Below are positions 10,108-17,801 of a stretch of 33,337 bases of DNA, in pieces. The notes below the pieces were generated by a model that worked only from the letters and a program-made list of their open reading frames with translations, made no database searches and had not been told where the DNA came from. Source of the stretch: an uncultured Opitutales bacterium (lineage in GTDB: Bacteria > Verrucomicrobiota > Verrucomicrobiia > Opitutales > Intestinicryptomonadaceae); contig CALXOC010000012.1 of NCBI GenBank assembly GCA_944389915.1, positions 1 to 33,337 on the forward strand. The letters are read 5' to 3'. Made by a program: the position numbers and the translations under genes. Within the stretch, counting starts at the first letter, position 1. Every line of letters starts with the position of its first letter.

Positions 10108-11682
10108 TTATTCCGTTTTTGGATTCAATGATGGATAGCGCTTTAGTATGCCGGCAATTTTTATGTCTATAGCGCGTTTCCAAAATTCAGATATGTCCAT
10201 TTTAGACTGCCATGTGTAAACTTCAAGCGCTTCTTTTGCACCTTCTTCTCCGCAAGTTTCAAGAAAATCGGCAAGCCGTGCGGCCATTCCCGAAAATTCA
10301 ACAAGTTTTAAGGAATCCTTTCTTAAAAGCGTTCGGGCAATTTCCATCTTATTTTCCTTATTGGTGTCTTCGGCTTCAAAAATTTTAAATAAGAGGGCTT
10401 CGTCGGGCATTTTCCCTATGTAGGACTTAATATAAGAATTTGCGTCTTTGCCCTCAAGCTTCATCAGATTTGCTTTTCTAAGCACTACATACTGTGAATA
10501 TTTGTCTATTTTGCCCGCTTCAATGTCCGCCAACTGTGAATCCAAATCTCTTGAGAAAGGGCGGTATAGAGGGTCGCCTACAAATATCCCTTGCCAGGAC
10601 AGGGCGGGAATGGATATCATAGCGGCTTCTCCCATGCTATGCCCGTCCGCGAGCGCCTTCGATATAAGATGCGGTTGATGTGTCGGGAAGAGAAAAGGTT
10701 CGGCCGAATTTCCGAAAGTTGCGGAAAAACCGTTCTTTACAAAAGACCCTACCCATGTCTTTTCATCTCTTATGCTTTCGGCGCTAAATGAATGTATGTG
10801 GAGCCCAAATGCTCCGGGCGCGGCTTTAAATCCGTTTTCGGCAAAATAGCCTCTGGCTATGTTTGAATACCAACCAAAATATATTGCCATGCCGTCGGCC
10901 CTGTCGCCGTAGCGCATTAGGCGCTTTGTTTCCTCAATTTCTACATCGTAGCCCATATTTTTAAATATTTGCGCTGATGCTTCCATCCATTCGTCCCCTT
11001 TGGGGGCATATTTGGACTTGTCTATATAGACTCTTCCCCGAAGGCCTTTTTTTTCTGAATCAATGGTTCTGTCTATATTTTCCATCACATATTCCGGATT
11101 CGGGCCGTCGAGACGCGCCACAGGAATAACCTGGGAATTTCTCTTTAATTCGCCGGAAAATTTTTTGCCGTATAGGGGATTTTTTAACATTCCATTAAAG
11201 CCTTTATTTGGAAGGAAGCGGCCCGACAACTCCGAGTCCAGAGATGCCTCGTCAGATATGGCTGCGGACAGTTTTTTATCCTTATTTTTCTTATCGGAGG
11301 TGGAGAGTATTCTCCAAGGAACTCCGTAGCACAGTATTACGCAATCCAGTTCTATTGAATTTAGAATATAGGAGTCCCTGCCGGAGTCCTCTTTTGTCCC
11401 GAGAGAAATTGCATTGATTGCCTTTCTTTTTACAAGTTCCCCTATTAGTGGATTCTCAAAGTGCTCTATGTAATTTTTTCGGCTCGATGTGGCTATTGAT
11501 GGAATTTTCAGCCTTATTATGTTTTCCTTTGGAACGCCGCGCGCTTTTGCGTAATATTCTGCTACCCTCAAAGAGTTTTCCTCTTTATCGTTTGTAACAA
11601 GATATATTTTTGACGCTTCAGCGGCATTTATAAACGAATATGCGGCAAATAGTGCAAACACTATGACAAGTAGCTTCTTCAT
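10108..11682 (-). CDS. TIGR03790-family secreted protein
   Basis: A 524-residue exported protein with a clear signal peptide (cleavage near residues 20-23, INAAEA). It matches my recollection of the TIGR03790 family, an uncharacterised group reported to occur only in genomes that carry exosortase. Visible family-like segments are KIYLVTNDKEENS, ARGVPKENIIRLKIP, DCVILCYGVPWRI near residues 113-125, AFGLHIHSFSA near 291-301 and LSWQGIFVGDPLYRPF at 361-376. The alternating hydrophobic strands and the late HSFSA and GDP motifs recall a caspase/gingipain-like fold, which is only an inference. The exosortase gene lies 1.7 kb away, divergently. The C-terminal 130 residues are helical and charged and may be a separate domain. 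Confidence 0.8.
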   Translation of the reverse strand: MKKLLVIVFALFAAYSFINAAEASKIYLVTNDKEENSLRVAEYYAKARGVPKENIIRLKIPSIATSSRKNYIEHFENPLIGELVKRKAINAISLGTKEDSGRDSYILNSIELDCVILCYGVPWRILSTSDKKNKDKKLSAAISDEASLDSELSGRFLPNKGFNGMLKNPLYGKKFSGELKRNSQVIPVARLDGPNPEYVMENIDRTIDSEKKGLRGRVYIDKSKYAPKGDEWMEASAQIFKNMGYDVEIEETKRLMRYGDRADGMAIYFGWYSNIARGYFAENGFKAAPGAFGLHIHSFSAESIRDEKTWVGSFVKNGFSATFGNSAEPFLFPTHQPHLISKALADGHSMGEAAMISIPALSWQGIFVGDPLYRPFSRDLDSQLADIEAGKIDKYSQYVVLRKANLMKLEGKDANSYIKSYIGKMPDEALLFKIFEAEDTNKENKMEIARTLLRKDSLKLVEFSGMAARLADFLETCGEEGAKEALEVYTWQSKMDISEFWKRAIDIKIAGILKRYPSLNPKTE

Positions 11683-11755
11683 AAAGTCGATTTTTTGTCT
11701 GGCCCTATCTTTGGCAAGATTAATATGTATTTGAAAGTATTAACGGCTAATTTGA

Positions 11756-11785
11756 TTGACAAAGTTTGATTTTTTCTTGGATAAT
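11756..11785 (+). promoter_or_regulatory. Near-consensus sigma70 promoter of the exosortase-side operon
   Basis: TTGACA (11756-11761), an 18-bp spacer and GATAAT (11780-11785) make the best promoter match in the window. The predicted start of transcription is about 33 nt before the ATG at 11825, so it should drive the secreted C39-like gene. Because it overlaps the leftmost frame of that gene, it also argues for the downstream ATG as the true start. Confidence 0.7.
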
Positions 11786-11824
11786 ATCGACGTTCTGGAT
11801 TCAACTTTAAATTATTATTGGCAT

Positions 11825-12526
11825 ATGAAAAAATTCTTAGCAATTCTTGTTTGGATCTTTGCGGCGGCATTATCTTTTTCTTCGCATGCTGCCGAGGACA
11901 AGGCGTCGTTAAAGGCGCGCTTTGAAAAAAACGTCACAAAGGCGGAAAATGGCGACGTCATAATTTCCGGTTTTCAAAAGCCGGAAAACTTGAAGGATCC
12001 CAGCGATATTGGCATGGCATTTGTAATGTGCTTGGCATATATAGATCCGGAATTGGACTTTGACAATCTTTCGGACTCAATTAACAAGGCGGTAGGCAAA
12101 AAGCGGACTCCCAACGGCGGGCGTCCGATAGCCTCTATAATGGACGGCATAAGCAAGTATCTGGGAAGAAAGAATATGAACCTGCAACAGGTAAGGCTGT
12201 CGGGCGTGTCCGCGAAGCAAAAGCTCGATGCAGGTTTGCCTATATTTTGTTGGACGGCTGTCAGCCCGATATACAATGGCGCCTTGAAAGAAAGGTCGCA
12301 GAAACGCGCTGATACTTCCGATATCAAAACGTGGGCAAAAGATCTCCGCAAGCTTGAACAGCGCAAAATAAAGCGTGAAAAAAGCACATATACCCAATGC
12401 ATAATAGCCGGATATAACAAGGCAAGCGATGAATACAGAATTCTGGGCGTTTCCGAAATTCCAATATGGATAACGGAAAAGGAGCTTAAGAACCTGTTGC
12501 TTGACGCGTATATTGTGCGATTCTAA
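11825..12526 (+). CDS. Secreted papain/C39-like protein, active site apparently lost
   Basis: A 233-residue exported protein (signal peptide MKKFLAILVWIF...SSHAA, cleavage near 22). The body follows the order of secreted papain-like/C39-like peptidases of this type: an N-terminal helix at about 58-73, an IASIMDGISKYL helix, KQKLDAGLPIFCW (133-143) matching the usual DxGxPxxW strand, and CIIAGYN (192-198) matching the HxxLIxGYN strand. The catalytic Cys site appears as DIGMAF and the His site as TQC, so both catalytic residues seem missing. This assignment rests on pattern order, not a search. It is preceded by a strong promoter and followed by a terminator-like hairpin, then the EpsI-like and exosortase genes. 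ATG 11825 is chosen for the signal peptide. Confidence 0.6.
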   Translation: MKKFLAILVWIFAAALSFSSHAAEDKASLKARFEKNVTKAENGDVIISGFQKPENLKDPSDIGMAFVMCLAYIDPELDFDNLSDSINKAVGKKRTPNGGRPIASIMDGISKYLGRKNMNLQQVRLSGVSAKQKLDAGLPIFCWTAVSPIYNGALKERSQKRADTSDIKTWAKDLRKLEQRKIKREKSTYTQCIIAGYNKASDEYRILGVSEIPIWITEKELKNLLLDAYIVRF

Positions 12527-12564
12527 ATTCGGATAAGGCATTTTTATCATATTTTATATTTTGG

Positions 12565-12589
12565 GCCTTCCGCTTTTCGGGGGGCTTTT
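12565..12589 (+). terminator. Candidate terminator between the C39-like and EpsI-like genes
   Basis: Stem GCCTTCCG / CGGGGGGC (two G-U pairs) with a CTTTT loop, followed directly by TTTT (12586-12589). It lies 39 bp after the stop at 12526 and 64 bp before the next ATG, so part of the transcription may stop here and the EpsI-like/exosortase pair may be expressed separately. Confidence 0.55.
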
Positions 12590-12652
12590 ATGTTTATGGA
12601 AATCTTTATGGTTGCCATAATATAGGTGTTTTAGTTATAGTTTTGCGTCTTT

Positions 12653-13387
12653 ATGAAGAATATCATAGCGTTCATAGTATTGGCCGTTTCGCTTGCGGGG
12701 CTTTATTTCGCCGCAAATCCACGCCCTTTGTTGGAGAGGCAGGCGCAGGCATCGTCTTCAGATAAATTGAAGCGGGCTGTTTCGGCCTCAATCGGTTCCA
12801 TGACAAGCGTTGACAAGCCATTGGGGGATACGGAAGAGGTCAAGAGGGCCTCGGAGAAAATTTTAATGGTCACGGAATTTCTACACCGCGAATATACGCT
12901 CGGCAACGGCATGAAGTTTACCCTTTACATTTCATATTGGGAACCGGGCAGGGAGGATGTTTACAAGGCTTCCACGCATACTCCAGATCGCTGTTGGGTT
13001 AAAAGCGGCTGGAAAAATCTTGATGAAAAAAAGCGCTCCGGCGATGTTTTAAGCGTGGGCGGCAGGCAGCTAATGCCCGCATACTACAGGGAATACACTA
13101 TAAACGCGGGATTGAACAACTATAAGCGAAATGTATGGTTTTGGTTTATCGTCGACGGCAAGCGCTATGATTACAAAACTTCCGACAATTACAATCCGAG
13201 CATAGCTGTGTATTTAAAAAATTTAATATCGTCCGTGACGGCCGAGGCTCCTGAAATGTTTTTTATACGCATAGACAGCGACAGCTCGCTTGAAAGTCTC
13301 CGCAGGGATCCGAATTTTCAAAAACTCTTGTCCGAACTCGGCGAGTTGATTCTCTTCCAAAAGGTGGGGGAGGCATCAAATGGATGA
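12653..13387 (+). CDS. EpsI-like exosortase-associated protein
   Basis: A 244-residue protein with one N-terminal hydrophobic segment (residues 4-20) that anchors or exports it, and a periplasmic domain resembling the EpsI/DUF3485 family. The diagnostic stretch is YISYWEPGRE (92-101) followed by HTPDRCWVKSGW (109-120), matching the HxPxxCxxxxGW pattern. EpsI-type domains accompany or are fused to exosortases and are linked to exopolysaccharide loci; their biochemical role is not established. It overlaps the exosortase start by 8 bp, so the two are almost certainly co-translated. The C-terminal region (about 170-240) is less conserved and helical. Confidence 0.8.
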   Translation: MKNIIAFIVLAVSLAGLYFAANPRPLLERQAQASSSDKLKRAVSASIGSMTSVDKPLGDTEEVKRASEKILMVTEFLHREYTLGNGMKFTLYISYWEPGREDVYKASTHTPDRCWVKSGWKNLDEKKRSGDVLSVGGRQLMPAYYREYTINAGLNNYKRNVWFWFIVDGKRYDYKTSDNYNPSIAVYLKNLISSVTAEAPEMFFIRIDSDSSLESLRRDPNFQKLLSELGELILFQKVGEASNG

Positions 13388-14384
13388 TTCAAAAAAAACG
13401 GACGCGCCCGTAGGGCGTTTTGCCGCATTCAAAAGGCTCCCATTTTATGCAAAGCTTTTCGCCGTGGCTTTTCTTGCCATGTCGGCATCGGAATATTTCC
13501 TGTTGTCATACGTTTGGGACACGAGGCTCGACTACACATTTGGATATCTTGTGCCGATTTTTTCCCTCTATGTGATTTATGACAGATCCGACAAAATGCT
13601 CGGGATTTTGAGGCCCGCTTCGATTGGGGAAACAGAGGGCGTTTTTGCGCGCGGATTTGCGGATTTGTTCTTCGGTTCAATGCTGTTTTGCGGCCTTGTT
13701 TTTTATTTGTTTTTTGCATGGTTCTTCTACATGACGCAAAACCGCGGCGCTCCCGCGTTCTCGATGACTTTCGGCTTCAGCTTTGCGTCTTATGCCATGG
13801 CTTATTTTGCGTCGGCGCGCTCTGTCGACGGCTCTCCGCTCCCGCTTAAATCGCGCCTGCAATTTACGGCTTTGTTTACATTCCCGTGTTTCATATGGAT
13901 ATTGAGCGCCCCGCCTATAGGGACAGTGGAGGAAAAAATCAGCCTGTTCCTTCTTGGAATTGTTGCGAACGTGGTTTACGCTATAATGGACGCGCTCGGT
14001 TATGTGGTGCAGCTACGCGGGAATGTGATTGACTTCCCCGGAGGTTCCGTAGGCGTTGCGGAGGCTTGCAGCGGCATAAGGAGCCTGATGGCCTGCCTCT
14101 TCGCGGGAAGCTTTCTTGCCGCTATTATGCTCGACAAGCTCTGGAAAAAAATCGCGCTGGTCATACTTTCAATGTTTTTCGCTTTCTTTAACAATATTCT
14201 CAGGGCCTTGTTCTTGTCGTTTTGGGCATACGAAAACGGTTCGGAGTCCATAAGCGGATTTGTGCACGACGCCGCGGGCTATTTTGTGTTGGGCACAACA
14301 ATTATAGGGCTGCTCTTGTTTGTGGCGCTTTTCCAACTCAATCCAGTCCCCGAAGAGTTCCGCGAAAAAAGCGGCAATCCGTAG
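13380..14384 (+). CDS. Exosortase/archaeosortase family protein
   Basis: Integral-membrane cysteine transpeptidase that recognises C-terminal sorting tags such as PEP-CTERM, cleaves them and transfers the protein to another surface component. The 334-residue protein has about eight hydrophobic helices. The catalytic triad is intact: Cys230 in EACSGIRSL, Arg275 in FNNILRALFL and His296 in GFVHDAAGY. Length and motif spacing are typical of stand-alone exosortases. It is the last gene of a pair with the EpsI-like protein (8-bp overlap) and converges with the binding-protein gene 17 bp away. No gene in the window ends in a recognisable PEP-CTERM tag, so its substrates are encoded elsewhere. I cannot assign a subfamily letter. 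Confidence 0.9.
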   Translation: MDDSKKTDAPVGRFAAFKRLPFYAKLFAVAFLAMSASEYFLLSYVWDTRLDYTFGYLVPIFSLYVIYDRSDKMLGILRPASIGETEGVFARGFADLFFGSMLFCGLVFYLFFAWFFYMTQNRGAPAFSMTFGFSFASYAMAYFASARSVDGSPLPLKSRLQFTALFTFPCFIWILSAPPIGTVEEKISLFLLGIVANVVYAIMDALGYVVQLRGNVIDFPGGSVGVAEACSGIRSLMACLFAGSFLAAIMLDKLWKKIALVILSMFFAFFNNILRALFLSFWAYENGSESISGFVHDAAGYFVLGTTIIGLLLFVALFQLNPVPEEFREKSGNP

Positions 14385-14401: not shown

Positions 14402-15286
14402 TTAACGGCGGAAATCTTTAGCGTATTTGTCGAGAACTTTTACCGCCTCTATTATGCGGGGCGCGGGAACTATAAACAAATCGCGGTTTAGGCATATTAT
14501 GCGCGAATTTTTTACGGCGTCGGTGGCGCGCCATATGGGGTCGGATTGCAGGGCCTCCTTTGCGGCTTTCGCGTCATTGTCGCTTTCAACCGCCGCAAAG
14601 ATTATTTCAGGGTTGGTTTTTAATACGCTTTCCCTTGGCAGCACGCTCCAGGGCTTTTGGGATATGTCTGCGCAGTTTCTGAAGCCGCAAACTTCAAGTA
14701 TGTCTCCAATATACGAGTTTTTACCGGCCGCCATATCCCCAAATAGAAATATTGCGCGCGGCTTTTCCGACGGCGGAATTTTTGCGTTTGATGCCTTTCT
14801 GTCCGCGAGAATGTCTATGTTTCGGGCAATATGCTCCGCATTGCCGCTCTTTTGAAAAAGTTCCCCCAGCATGCGGACGTCTGAGGCTATGTTGCCCAGT
14901 CCCTCGCGGTTTAAATAAAAGCACTTTATTCCCAAAATTCTTAATTTATTCTCTATGCGCGCGTCCGCCAATCCGGGCAGGATTACAAGCTCCGGCTTTA
15001 TTCTCGCAATCTTTTCGTAATCCGGATCAATGAATCCGCCTATCTTTGGCTTGCTTTTGGCAGCGTCTGGGTATGTGCAATAGCGGGATGTGGCTACTAT
15101 TGAATTTTCGGCCCCTATTGCGTAAATTTCCTCGGTAATCGACGGTGTGAGCGTCGCCACTCTCGATGGGGGGGACTGAAATTCAAATTGCCTGCCTTTA
15201 GCGTCTTTTATCGCATAGGAAAAGATTTCGCCCGTAGCGGCGAAAAGCCACAGGCATGCGAGCAGTTTTAATAGGCGCAATCTCAT
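14402..15286 (-). CDS. Periplasmic binding protein, BtuF/FhuD type
   Basis: A 294-residue exported protein of the PF01497 helical-backbone binding family that captures cobalamin, haem or iron-siderophores for ABC importers. A signal peptide (MRLRLLKLLACLWLF...) is followed by the family opening RVATLTPSITEEIYAIGAEN, TSRYCTYP and IGGFIDPDYEKIARIKPELVI, and the second lobe starts around residue 180. The start ATG 15286 overlaps the stop of the VC0807-family gene as ATGA. Neither a permease nor an ATPase gene is adjacent, so it is an orphan binding protein or works with a distant transporter. Ligand unknown; a cobalamin-type ligand is a guess. Confidence 0.82.
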   Translation of the reverse strand: MRLRLLKLLACLWLFAATGEIFSYAIKDAKGRQFEFQSPPSRVATLTPSITEEIYAIGAENSIVATSRYCTYPDAAKSKPKIGGFIDPDYEKIARIKPELVILPGLADARIENKLRILGIKCFYLNREGLGNIASDVRMLGELFQKSGNAEHIARNIDILADRKASNAKIPPSEKPRAIFLFGDMAAGKNSYIGDILEVCGFRNCADISQKPWSVLPRESVLKTNPEIIFAAVESDNDAKAAKEALQSDPIWRATDAVKNSRIICLNRDLFIVPAPRIIEAVKVLDKYAKDFRR

Positions 15287-16011
15287 TTTTTTGCGCGCTC
15301 CGCGATGATATCCTCCATTGACAGGCCCGTGCAGAGGTTTATCGCTCTCAGTATTTTGAACATGGCCCAAATCATTATGACCATGGACGGCACGACTATC
15401 ACGGGAAAGGACAGCGCCGTCATTCTTCCAAGCTCCGCATTGAAAGCCTCCGTTCCGGGTTCGCTTTGAAATATCCAGCAGGCCAGAGCGAAATTGAGAA
15501 TGGAACTCAATAGAAAGGACAGAGCCACGAGAATTGTGGCCGATTTTAAGGTGGCGTTAAAAGAGTCGCGCGTTCCTTTGCCGTCGAGGGCCGCGTTTAT
15601 TTTTTCAAGATTCATTACCGACTCGTTCATGAGCAGCAATTTTGCCAGGGGCTTTTTTGTGGCCGCAGTCGCCAGCACCGCAAGCCCTATAAGGAGCGGT
15701 ATGGCGCCCTCTTTTACTATCATCCACTCGCGCGACACCTTTAAAAGCCCTATGCCGCCGGTAAGGGCAACGCTTGCTATGCCAAGAATAGATATAAAAT
15801 TGAATTTGCGTCGAGATGCGAGGTCGTAAAGCCCGTAAAGCAGGGGAAATGCAATGGCAATTATAAATATCCACATGTCGGCATCTGTTGCCGCGGACAC
15901 GTCGACGCCGCATAGCTGGGCCAATTTCTTGCCCTTTATTAAAAGCAGACTCGGCACTACAATGTTAAAGCCGAGATTCAGCCAGATATTCTCTGATTTC
16001 TTCCCGCTCAT
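15283..16011 (-). CDS. VC0807-family membrane protein
   Basis: A 242-residue integral membrane protein with about six hydrophobic helices. The order NIVVPSLLLIKGKK, IAFPLLYGLYDL, RRKFNFISILGIASVALTGG, then REWMIVKEGAIPLLIGLAVL and the TKKPLAKLLL loop is what I recall for VC0807-family proteins, whose function is unknown. It overlaps the glycosyltransferase upstream and the binding protein downstream by 4 bp each, so it is translationally coupled to both. The second half carries another helix pair and a short charged tail. Confidence 0.7.
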   Translation of the reverse strand: MSGKKSENIWLNLGFNIVVPSLLLIKGKKLAQLCGVDVSAATDADMWIFIIAIAFPLLYGLYDLASRRKFNFISILGIASVALTGGIGLLKVSREWMIVKEGAIPLLIGLAVLATAATKKPLAKLLLMNESVMNLEKINAALDGKGTRDSFNATLKSATILVALSFLLSSILNFALACWIFQSEPGTEAFNAELGRMTALSFPVIVVPSMVIMIWAMFKILRAINLCTGLSMEDIIAERAKK

Positions 16012-17801
16012 TTCTGCTTTTTGCGCGGAAGCTTTGTCAGCAGCAGATTGCCGCTTCTGGCTACTTCCGCGGGCTCCAATTTCATGTCGGACTTAAGGAG
16101 CTCAAGGTTGCGCTCGCGCAAGGCTATGTAAATGTCTCCGTCGATTTTTGACGCAAATTCCCTAAAGTCCTTTTCGTTTAGAATAAATCTTTTGGAATGT
16201 TTTTCTCGCTCGCGCATCAGCCCGAATTTCTGCTCTTCGGGAGCATCTCCTATCATGTAGGTCAAATGCCCCAGCCATACGGGAAGGTCTTGAAAAACTC
16301 CGTAGTCGTAGGCTATAAAAATGACATCGCCGTCTTTTGCGTTAGCCTTATAATATTTTGCAAGCGGTTCGGCGCTCGGCCTCTGCGCTATCGCGCCTAT
16401 GGGGTTTATAAAGGCCAATAGGCCGTAAATGGCGCAAAAAGACGCCGCAAAAAAGGCCTTCGTTTTCCCTTTGAGATAAAGCAGAAGGGCTACAGTGGTG
16501 ATTGCAAACATGAATAGTGCCAGAGACGCGAATATCGGAAGTGCCGTGGCTGTGTCTGGAATTTTGCCGTCTTTAAGCAGTATTGGATATGCAATCGCCG
16601 GCGCTATTGACGCTATGTATCCAAGCGCCACAAATATGCGCGGACTCCATTTTAAGGCGAAGTTTCCGGGCTTTTCCCATACTTTTGCGAGCCACGCGCC
16701 CGTTATATACGCGAGAGCCGGATACACCGGTATTATATAAGGTATGAGCTTTGAGCTTGATGCGGAAAAAAACAGTATCACAAACGCGACCCAAATTGCG
16801 CAGAAAAGCATATCCGCATTCTGGGCCCTCAGATTTCCGAGTCCGCCCTTGAATGATTGCCCCAGGGATTGCGGCAATATGGCTATCCACGGAATAAAGC
16901 CCGCGGGCGCTATTAGCAGGAAAAACCAAAACGGCTGCTCGCGCATGCTTGTTGAAGGGTCTATATAGCGCAAAATGTGTTCGTGTATTATGTAGTACCA
17001 GAAAAAGCCCTGTCCCTCCCATTCCTTGGAAAATATTCCTCCGGCGTTTTCGTAAGGGGGGTTTGCAATGGCCGCAAGCACATGCCAGGGCAGCGCCACC
17101 GCCACAAATACGGCAATGCCGGCCGATATCCAAATAATGTCGCTCTTCCTAAAGATTGATGTGAATTTGGAAGGCCCCATAAACAAGAGCCATATGAATA
17201 CTGCGGCCGCGGGAATGAGTATTCCTATCAATCCCTTTGTGAGTACCGCCAGCGCGCAAAAGAAGAAGAACAATACGGTTAGAACAGCCCTCCATGCCCC
17301 GCTCTTTTTTATCGCCACGATAAACGAGAACATTGCTCCCGATATGAAAACAGAAACCGCCATGTCGAGCGTTACAATTTCTCCAAGGGCGCAGTATAGG
17401 GCCGAAGTTCCGAGAATCATAGCCGTCCATATGCCCGCGAGGCGCCCCCTGAGGGCGCGCGCCGCGCAATAGCTCAGAACTATTCCCGTCAGCGCCATAA
17501 GCGAATTTGGCAGGCGGGCGGAAACTCTGTTTACACCCAAAGCCTTTATTGATGCGGCCTGCATCCAGTAGAAGAGCGGAGGCTTGTAAAAGTATGGCAT
17601 GCCGTTGAGCCTGGGGGTTGTCCAGTCTCCGGATTCGGCCATTTCCCTTGGGATTTCCGTATATCGGCCTTCGTCTGGGCTTGCGAGCGGCCTTATCGGA
17701 GCAATTGCCAAATACAGCGGGATAAATAGCGCCAACAACAGCAAAATGTCGGTCAGCCATGAGATACTGCCTTTATTTTTTTTAATAGAAGATATTGGCA
17801 T
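16008..17801 (-). CDS. ArnT-like glycosyltransferase (GT39/GT83 type)
   Basis: A 597-residue polytopic membrane protein of the PMT/ArnT superfamily, which transfers sugars from polyprenyl-phosphate donors to lipid A, glycans or proteins on the periplasmic face. The conserved first loop SPDEGRYTEIPREM (about residues 41-54) contains the acidic catalytic residue, followed by GDWTTPRLNGMPYFYKPPLFYW. About 12 hydrophobic helices fill residues 18-470 and a soluble C-terminal domain of about 120 residues follows. Closest in pattern to ArnT, but the acceptor cannot be inferred. First gene of the trio with the VC0807 and binding-protein genes (4-bp overlap). Confidence 0.87.
   Translation of the reverse strand: MPISSIKKNKGSISWLTDILLLLALFIPLYLAIAPIRPLASPDEGRYTEIPREMAESGDWTTPRLNGMPYFYKPPLFYWMQAASIKALGVNRVSARLPNSLMALTGIVLSYCAARALRGRLAGIWTAMILGTSALYCALGEIVTLDMAVSVFISGAMFSFIVAIKKSGAWRAVLTVLFFFFCALAVLTKGLIGILIPAAAVFIWLLFMGPSKFTSIFRKSDIIWISAGIAVFVAVALPWHVLAAIANPPYENAGGIFSKEWEGQGFFWYYIIHEHILRYIDPSTSMREQPFWFFLLIAPAGFIPWIAILPQSLGQSFKGGLGNLRAQNADMLFCAIWVAFVILFFSASSSKLIPYIIPVYPALAYITGAWLAKVWEKPGNFALKWSPRIFVALGYIASIAPAIAYPILLKDGKIPDTATALPIFASLALFMFAITTVALLLYLKGKTKAFFAASFCAIYGLLAFINPIGAIAQRPSAEPLAKYYKANAKDGDVIFIAYDYGVFQDLPVWLGHLTYMIGDAPEEQKFGLMREREKHSKRFILNEKDFREFASKIDGDIYIALRERNLELLKSDMKLEPAEVARSGNLLLTKLPRKKQK

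Follow-up and report, generated by a model that had tools for sequence, protein, structure and literature searches.

The locus

The window, by which we mean the whole stretch of DNA analysed here, is a complete contig of 33,337 bases, taken from a genome of 2.21 Mb in 218 contigs. The relatives with which it was compared are gut and environmental Opitutales. The features of concern are the following.

10108..11682, minus strand: TIGR03790 family exported protein, 524 aa (profile match, predicted model)
11683..11824: divergent intergenic region upstream of g2, with a promoter-like TTGACA-18-GATAAT at 11756-11785 on the plus strand (consensus match only)
11825..12526, plus strand: g2, an exported protein of papain/C39 fold without the catalytic Cys and His (relatives' profile matches, model)
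12563..12587, plus strand: terminator-like hairpin between g2 and EpsI (consensus match only)
12612-12641: promoter-like site after the terminator-like hairpin and before EpsI (consensus match only)
12653..13387, plus strand: EpsI-like (DUF3485) protein (profile match)
13380..14384, plus strand: exosortase, 334 aa, C230/R275/H296 (profile match, alignment)
14402..15370, minus strand: BtuF-like periplasmic binding protein, which opens the conserved flank and in relatives adjoins TIGR03790
15283..16011, minus strand: VC0807 family membrane protein, conserved flank
16008..17801, minus strand: PMT/ArnT-like glycosyltransferase, conserved flank

An earlier note on this DNA had placed a TIGR03790 protein, a degenerate C39-like protein, an EpsI-like protein and an exosortase side by side between 10108 and 14384. 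All four genes lie where it put them, and all four identities are borne out. TIGR03790 is encoded on the strand opposite to that of g2, EpsI and the exosortase. Between g2 and EpsI, the hairpin and the promoter-like site, as matches to consensus, suggest separate transcription units.

The exosortase and its EpsI-like partner

The exosortase matches PF09721 over its full length at 143.9 bits (cut-off 25.7). Its triad of C230, R275 and H296, described previously as complete, is so, and all 18 aligned rows keep it unchanged. The protein falls below the cut-offs of all the named NCBIfam Xrt subtypes, the best being XrtW at 92.7 of 425. The EpsI-like protein scores 43.5 bits against DUF3485 (PF11984), above the Pfam cut-off of 26.1, and 26.6 bits against TIGR02914, under the cut-off of 42.8. 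The overlap already remarked between these two genes is 8 nt long. An EpsI-like ORF lies directly upstream of the same exosortase type in 10 of the 11 other family genomes having that type.

How does this pair compare with the exosortase/PEP-CTERM system of EpsH with EpsI (Haft et al. 2006, PMC1569441)? The two are alike in the Cys-Arg-His exosortase, in the EpsI/DUF3485 partner and in the many PEP-CTERM substrates dispersed over the genome. Unlike that system, the present one reaches neither the TIGR02914 cut-off nor that of any named Xrt subtype, has no visible exopolysaccharide cluster around the pair, and has TIGR03790 adjoining the exosortase, which it does only here.

The same genome contains a second EpsI–exosortase pair (G000:C70; L033/L110). 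This is 73% identical in DNA to the locus of the relative G036 and is its sister in the tree, whereas the TIGR03790 of the window is 42% identical to that of G036. The second pair is possibly a transfer or bin contamination. A third, more divergent exosortase is found at G000:C15:1368-2135.

The degenerate C39-like protein g2

The g2 ORF opens with a TTG at 11756, the probable start being the ATG at 11825. By itself g2 has no match in Pfam or NCBIfam. The description ‘degenerate C39-like’ is nevertheless the right one, because 5 of 12 family members match Peptidase_C39_2 (best 1.4e-8), because the catalytic Cys and His of Peptidase_C39_2, retained in homologues of 400 aa, are both missing from g2, and because its AF2 model (pLDDT 71) finds papain-fold enzymes as its structural matches. 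Fold and homologues are thus shared with Peptidase_C39_2 and the papain-like enzymes; the absence of the Cys and His of the 400-aa relatives sets g2 apart. The neighbour of the C39-like gene is TIGR03790 in two relatives (G036 and G155) and BtuF/VC0807 in two others (G051 and G092). In none of these four does the gene lie beside an exosortase.

Co-occurrence of TIGR03790 and exosortase

Is TIGR03790 tied to exosortase at the level of whole genomes? The phylogenetic correlation stated in the earlier note holds. A PF09721 match is present in 100 of the 104 genomes of the order that have TIGR03790 and in 123 of 124 in a sample of the phylum (Fisher p 4e-22 and 2e-22, respectively, uncorrected for ancestry). 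The exceptions, with TIGR03790 and no exosortase, are two incomplete genomes together with G072, G032 and G274. In G274 the gene lies at C1:248819-249814; G032, a single contig that is 97% complete, has TIGR03790 and three PEP-CTERM tags and no PF09721 match. In the other direction, TIGR03790 is missing from 22 of 122 exosortase genomes in the order and, among those of the phylum sample, from 57 of 180. One member of the genus, G081, assembled as one contig, has no exosortase, no TIGR03790 and no PEP-CTERM match. Akkermansia muciniphila is described as having 23 PEP-CTERM proteins and a gene resembling EpsH (PMC4960237).

Divergent TIGR03790 genes, whose often longer proteins have lower scores on the model, are found no farther than about 3.5 kb from an exosortase in at least six genomes among the exosortase matches listed (G226, G323, G300, G234, G022 and G071). 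DUF3485/EpsI adjoins the exosortase at all three such loci that were checked. On their evidence, linkage is possible in the TIGR03790 family at large. Proximity to an exosortase is seen only for this divergent subfamily, and there only sometimes; for the canonical form the linkage that had been proposed fails. Long divergent TIGR03790-like proteins with bacterial Ig (Big_7) domains were also seen near exosortases (L195, L197).

Might TIGR03790 be unrelated to the exosortase pathway, the co-occurrence reflecting shared ancestry and genome size? That canonical TIGR03790 is unlinked to exosortase, and that so many exosortase genomes manage without it, would fit such a reading. But the dependence is one-sided, TIGR03790 being almost never found without an exosortase; the two are jointly absent within the genus, in G081; and divergent members recurrently adjoin exosortases. 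We consider independence possible, but rather unlikely.

TIGR03790: predicted fold and putative active-site residues

The protein encoded at 10108-11682 matches TIGR03790 over its full length at 250.4 bits (cut-off 67, E 3e-74), and in defining features it does not differ from that NCBIfam subfamily. It is the only copy in its genome. A signal peptide is followed by a gingipain/separase-like core (about 25-370) and by C-terminal TPR-like helices (about 380-515). The AlphaFold2 model, built from 53 sequences, has a pLDDT of 93 and a pTM of 0.92. Its top Foldseek matches in the PDB are to gingipain K (E 3.6e-5 and 1.6e-4, prob 1.00) and the next is to separase (prob 1.00), both of clan CD; the TM-scores are modest at 0.37/0.42, with an rmsd of 8.2. 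In Pfam and PDB sequence searches the core has no match, and only the C-terminal helices match, to TPR proteins. PF01364 (Peptidase C25) matches neither this protein, at E up to 1, nor anything else in the genome. Profile–profile comparison gave a C25 link of 59.8% and 41% probability with a balanced or a divergent alignment, above shuffled-column controls; the link vanishes with a large canonical TIGR03790 alignment. We regard a gingipain-like fold as likely.

If the fold is that of a gingipain, what has become of the active site? Compared with Peptidase C25 (the gingipains) and the separases, the predicted fold is alike, as is a GDP-L type motif where the core ends. The C-terminal domain differs, and the catalytic His and Cys are not at the expected places: residues 269-275 include no His and residues 294-301 no Cys, these positions being placed by sequence alignment rather than by superposition. 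The Cys-His dyad has probably been lost. Could another site have been rebuilt on the same fold, with Ser298 acting together with His295 and Glu328, so that TIGR03790 is still an active enzyme? All 127 rows, 112 of them canonical and 15 divergent, carry S298, E328 and P329, H295 is present in 109 of the 112 canonical rows, and one profile alignment places S298 at the C25 cysteine. However, H295 is missing from a few members and the register of the alignment is uncertain. We think such an enzyme unlikely, and its activity a candidate one.

TIGR03790 had no assigned function, and a literature search found no paper naming it. What we add for the family is a predicted fold and a usual neighbourhood, the former being a concrete structural hypothesis.

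Conservation of the neighbourhood

Do the four genes belong together? The earlier note had suggested that they form one unit for the sorting or maturation of surface proteins. Their order is conserved in none of the relatives examined, and in close relatives canonical TIGR03790 is not linked to exosortase. Twelve other genomes of the family have both genes, and in none is TIGR03790 near an exosortase: in G036 at least 196 kb separate the two, and in the rest they are on separate contigs. In some relatives the contig ends shortly beyond TIGR03790, and for these the comparison is one-sided. Nor does an exosortase lie near TIGR03790 at any of 80 Opitutia loci, with flanks of at most 10 kb compared.

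What is conserved instead is a block of PMT, VC0807, BtuF and TIGR03790, found in six of nine members of the genus, in G036 with two genes inserted. The PMT, VC0807 and BtuF genes are those at 14402-17801 of the window. The EpsI–exosortase pair therefore sits between two parts of a conserved block, which g2, EpsI and the exosortase interrupt exactly. With some two to three exosortases per genome, chance should, as we estimate, place the two genes within 5 kb of each other about once in 100 genomes. We conclude that the adjacency of TIGR03790 and exosortase in the window is probably incidental.

One sorting unit of four genes would accord with their adjacency, with products that are all exported or membrane proteins, with the genome-level co-occurrence of TIGR03790 and exosortase, and with the divergent subfamily that does adjoin exosortases. 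Yet no relative examined keeps the arrangement, no exosortase lies near g2 in other genomes, TIGR03790 is encoded in the opposite direction, a terminator-like site separates g2 from EpsI, and chance alone would supply the occasional adjacency at the rate just estimated. We reject such a unit on the synteny in relatives, and hold it to be very unlikely. That the contig is a chimera, an EpsI–exosortase piece joined into the TIGR03790 block, is extremely improbable: the genome is indeed fragmented and the block broken exactly at these genes, but EpsI–exosortase differs little in GC content from the whole contig (0.487 against 0.496), the genes on both sides are intact, and the junctions have no long repeat and nothing resembling an insertion element.

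A proposed role for TIGR03790

Exosortase systems are widespread and, to our knowledge, little is known of the fate of PEP-CTERM proteins after cleavage. The explanation that we favour, with reasonable though far from full confidence, is that the adjacency is incidental and that TIGR03790, an exported protein of gingipain fold, works with the exosortase pathway in trans. Two separate gene sets would have come to lie side by side through rearrangement in this genome. The first would be an ordinary EpsI–exosortase pair, acting on PEP-CTERM proteins encoded elsewhere. The second would be TIGR03790, which in the genus normally belongs to the block described above, next to which the dead C39-like g2 is occasionally found. 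Even so, TIGR03790 most likely remains in the service of the exosortase/PEP-CTERM pathway. Since the Cys-His dyad usual in such folds seems to be gone, we infer a protein that, instead of acting on sorted proteins as a cysteine peptidase, probably binds or handles them, the site being the periplasm or the outer membrane.

PorU is a gingipain-related sortase of the type IX secretion system. By analogy, TIGR03790 might act on PEP-CTERM proteins after exosortase cleavage, either as an acceptor without catalysis or through a site rebuilt around Ser298, its divergent form standing beside EpsI–exosortase in some Verrucomicrobiota; we put this forward as a distinctly doubtful idea. The locus illustrates that a striking adjacency in a single genome can be incidental, and the genome-level tie to exosortase tells where the function of TIGR03790 can be examined.

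The PEP-CTERM proteins themselves do lie elsewhere. The genome-wide scan for their tags, proposed earlier, gave 22 matches above the cut-off, every one of them outside the window, which agrees with the previous statement that no substrate is encoded here. The 12 tails that were read end in PEP, a transmembrane segment and basic residues. In G036, two similar exported proteins adjoin TIGR03790 (L072:10785-13518), and a PEP-CTERM match of that genome falls there.
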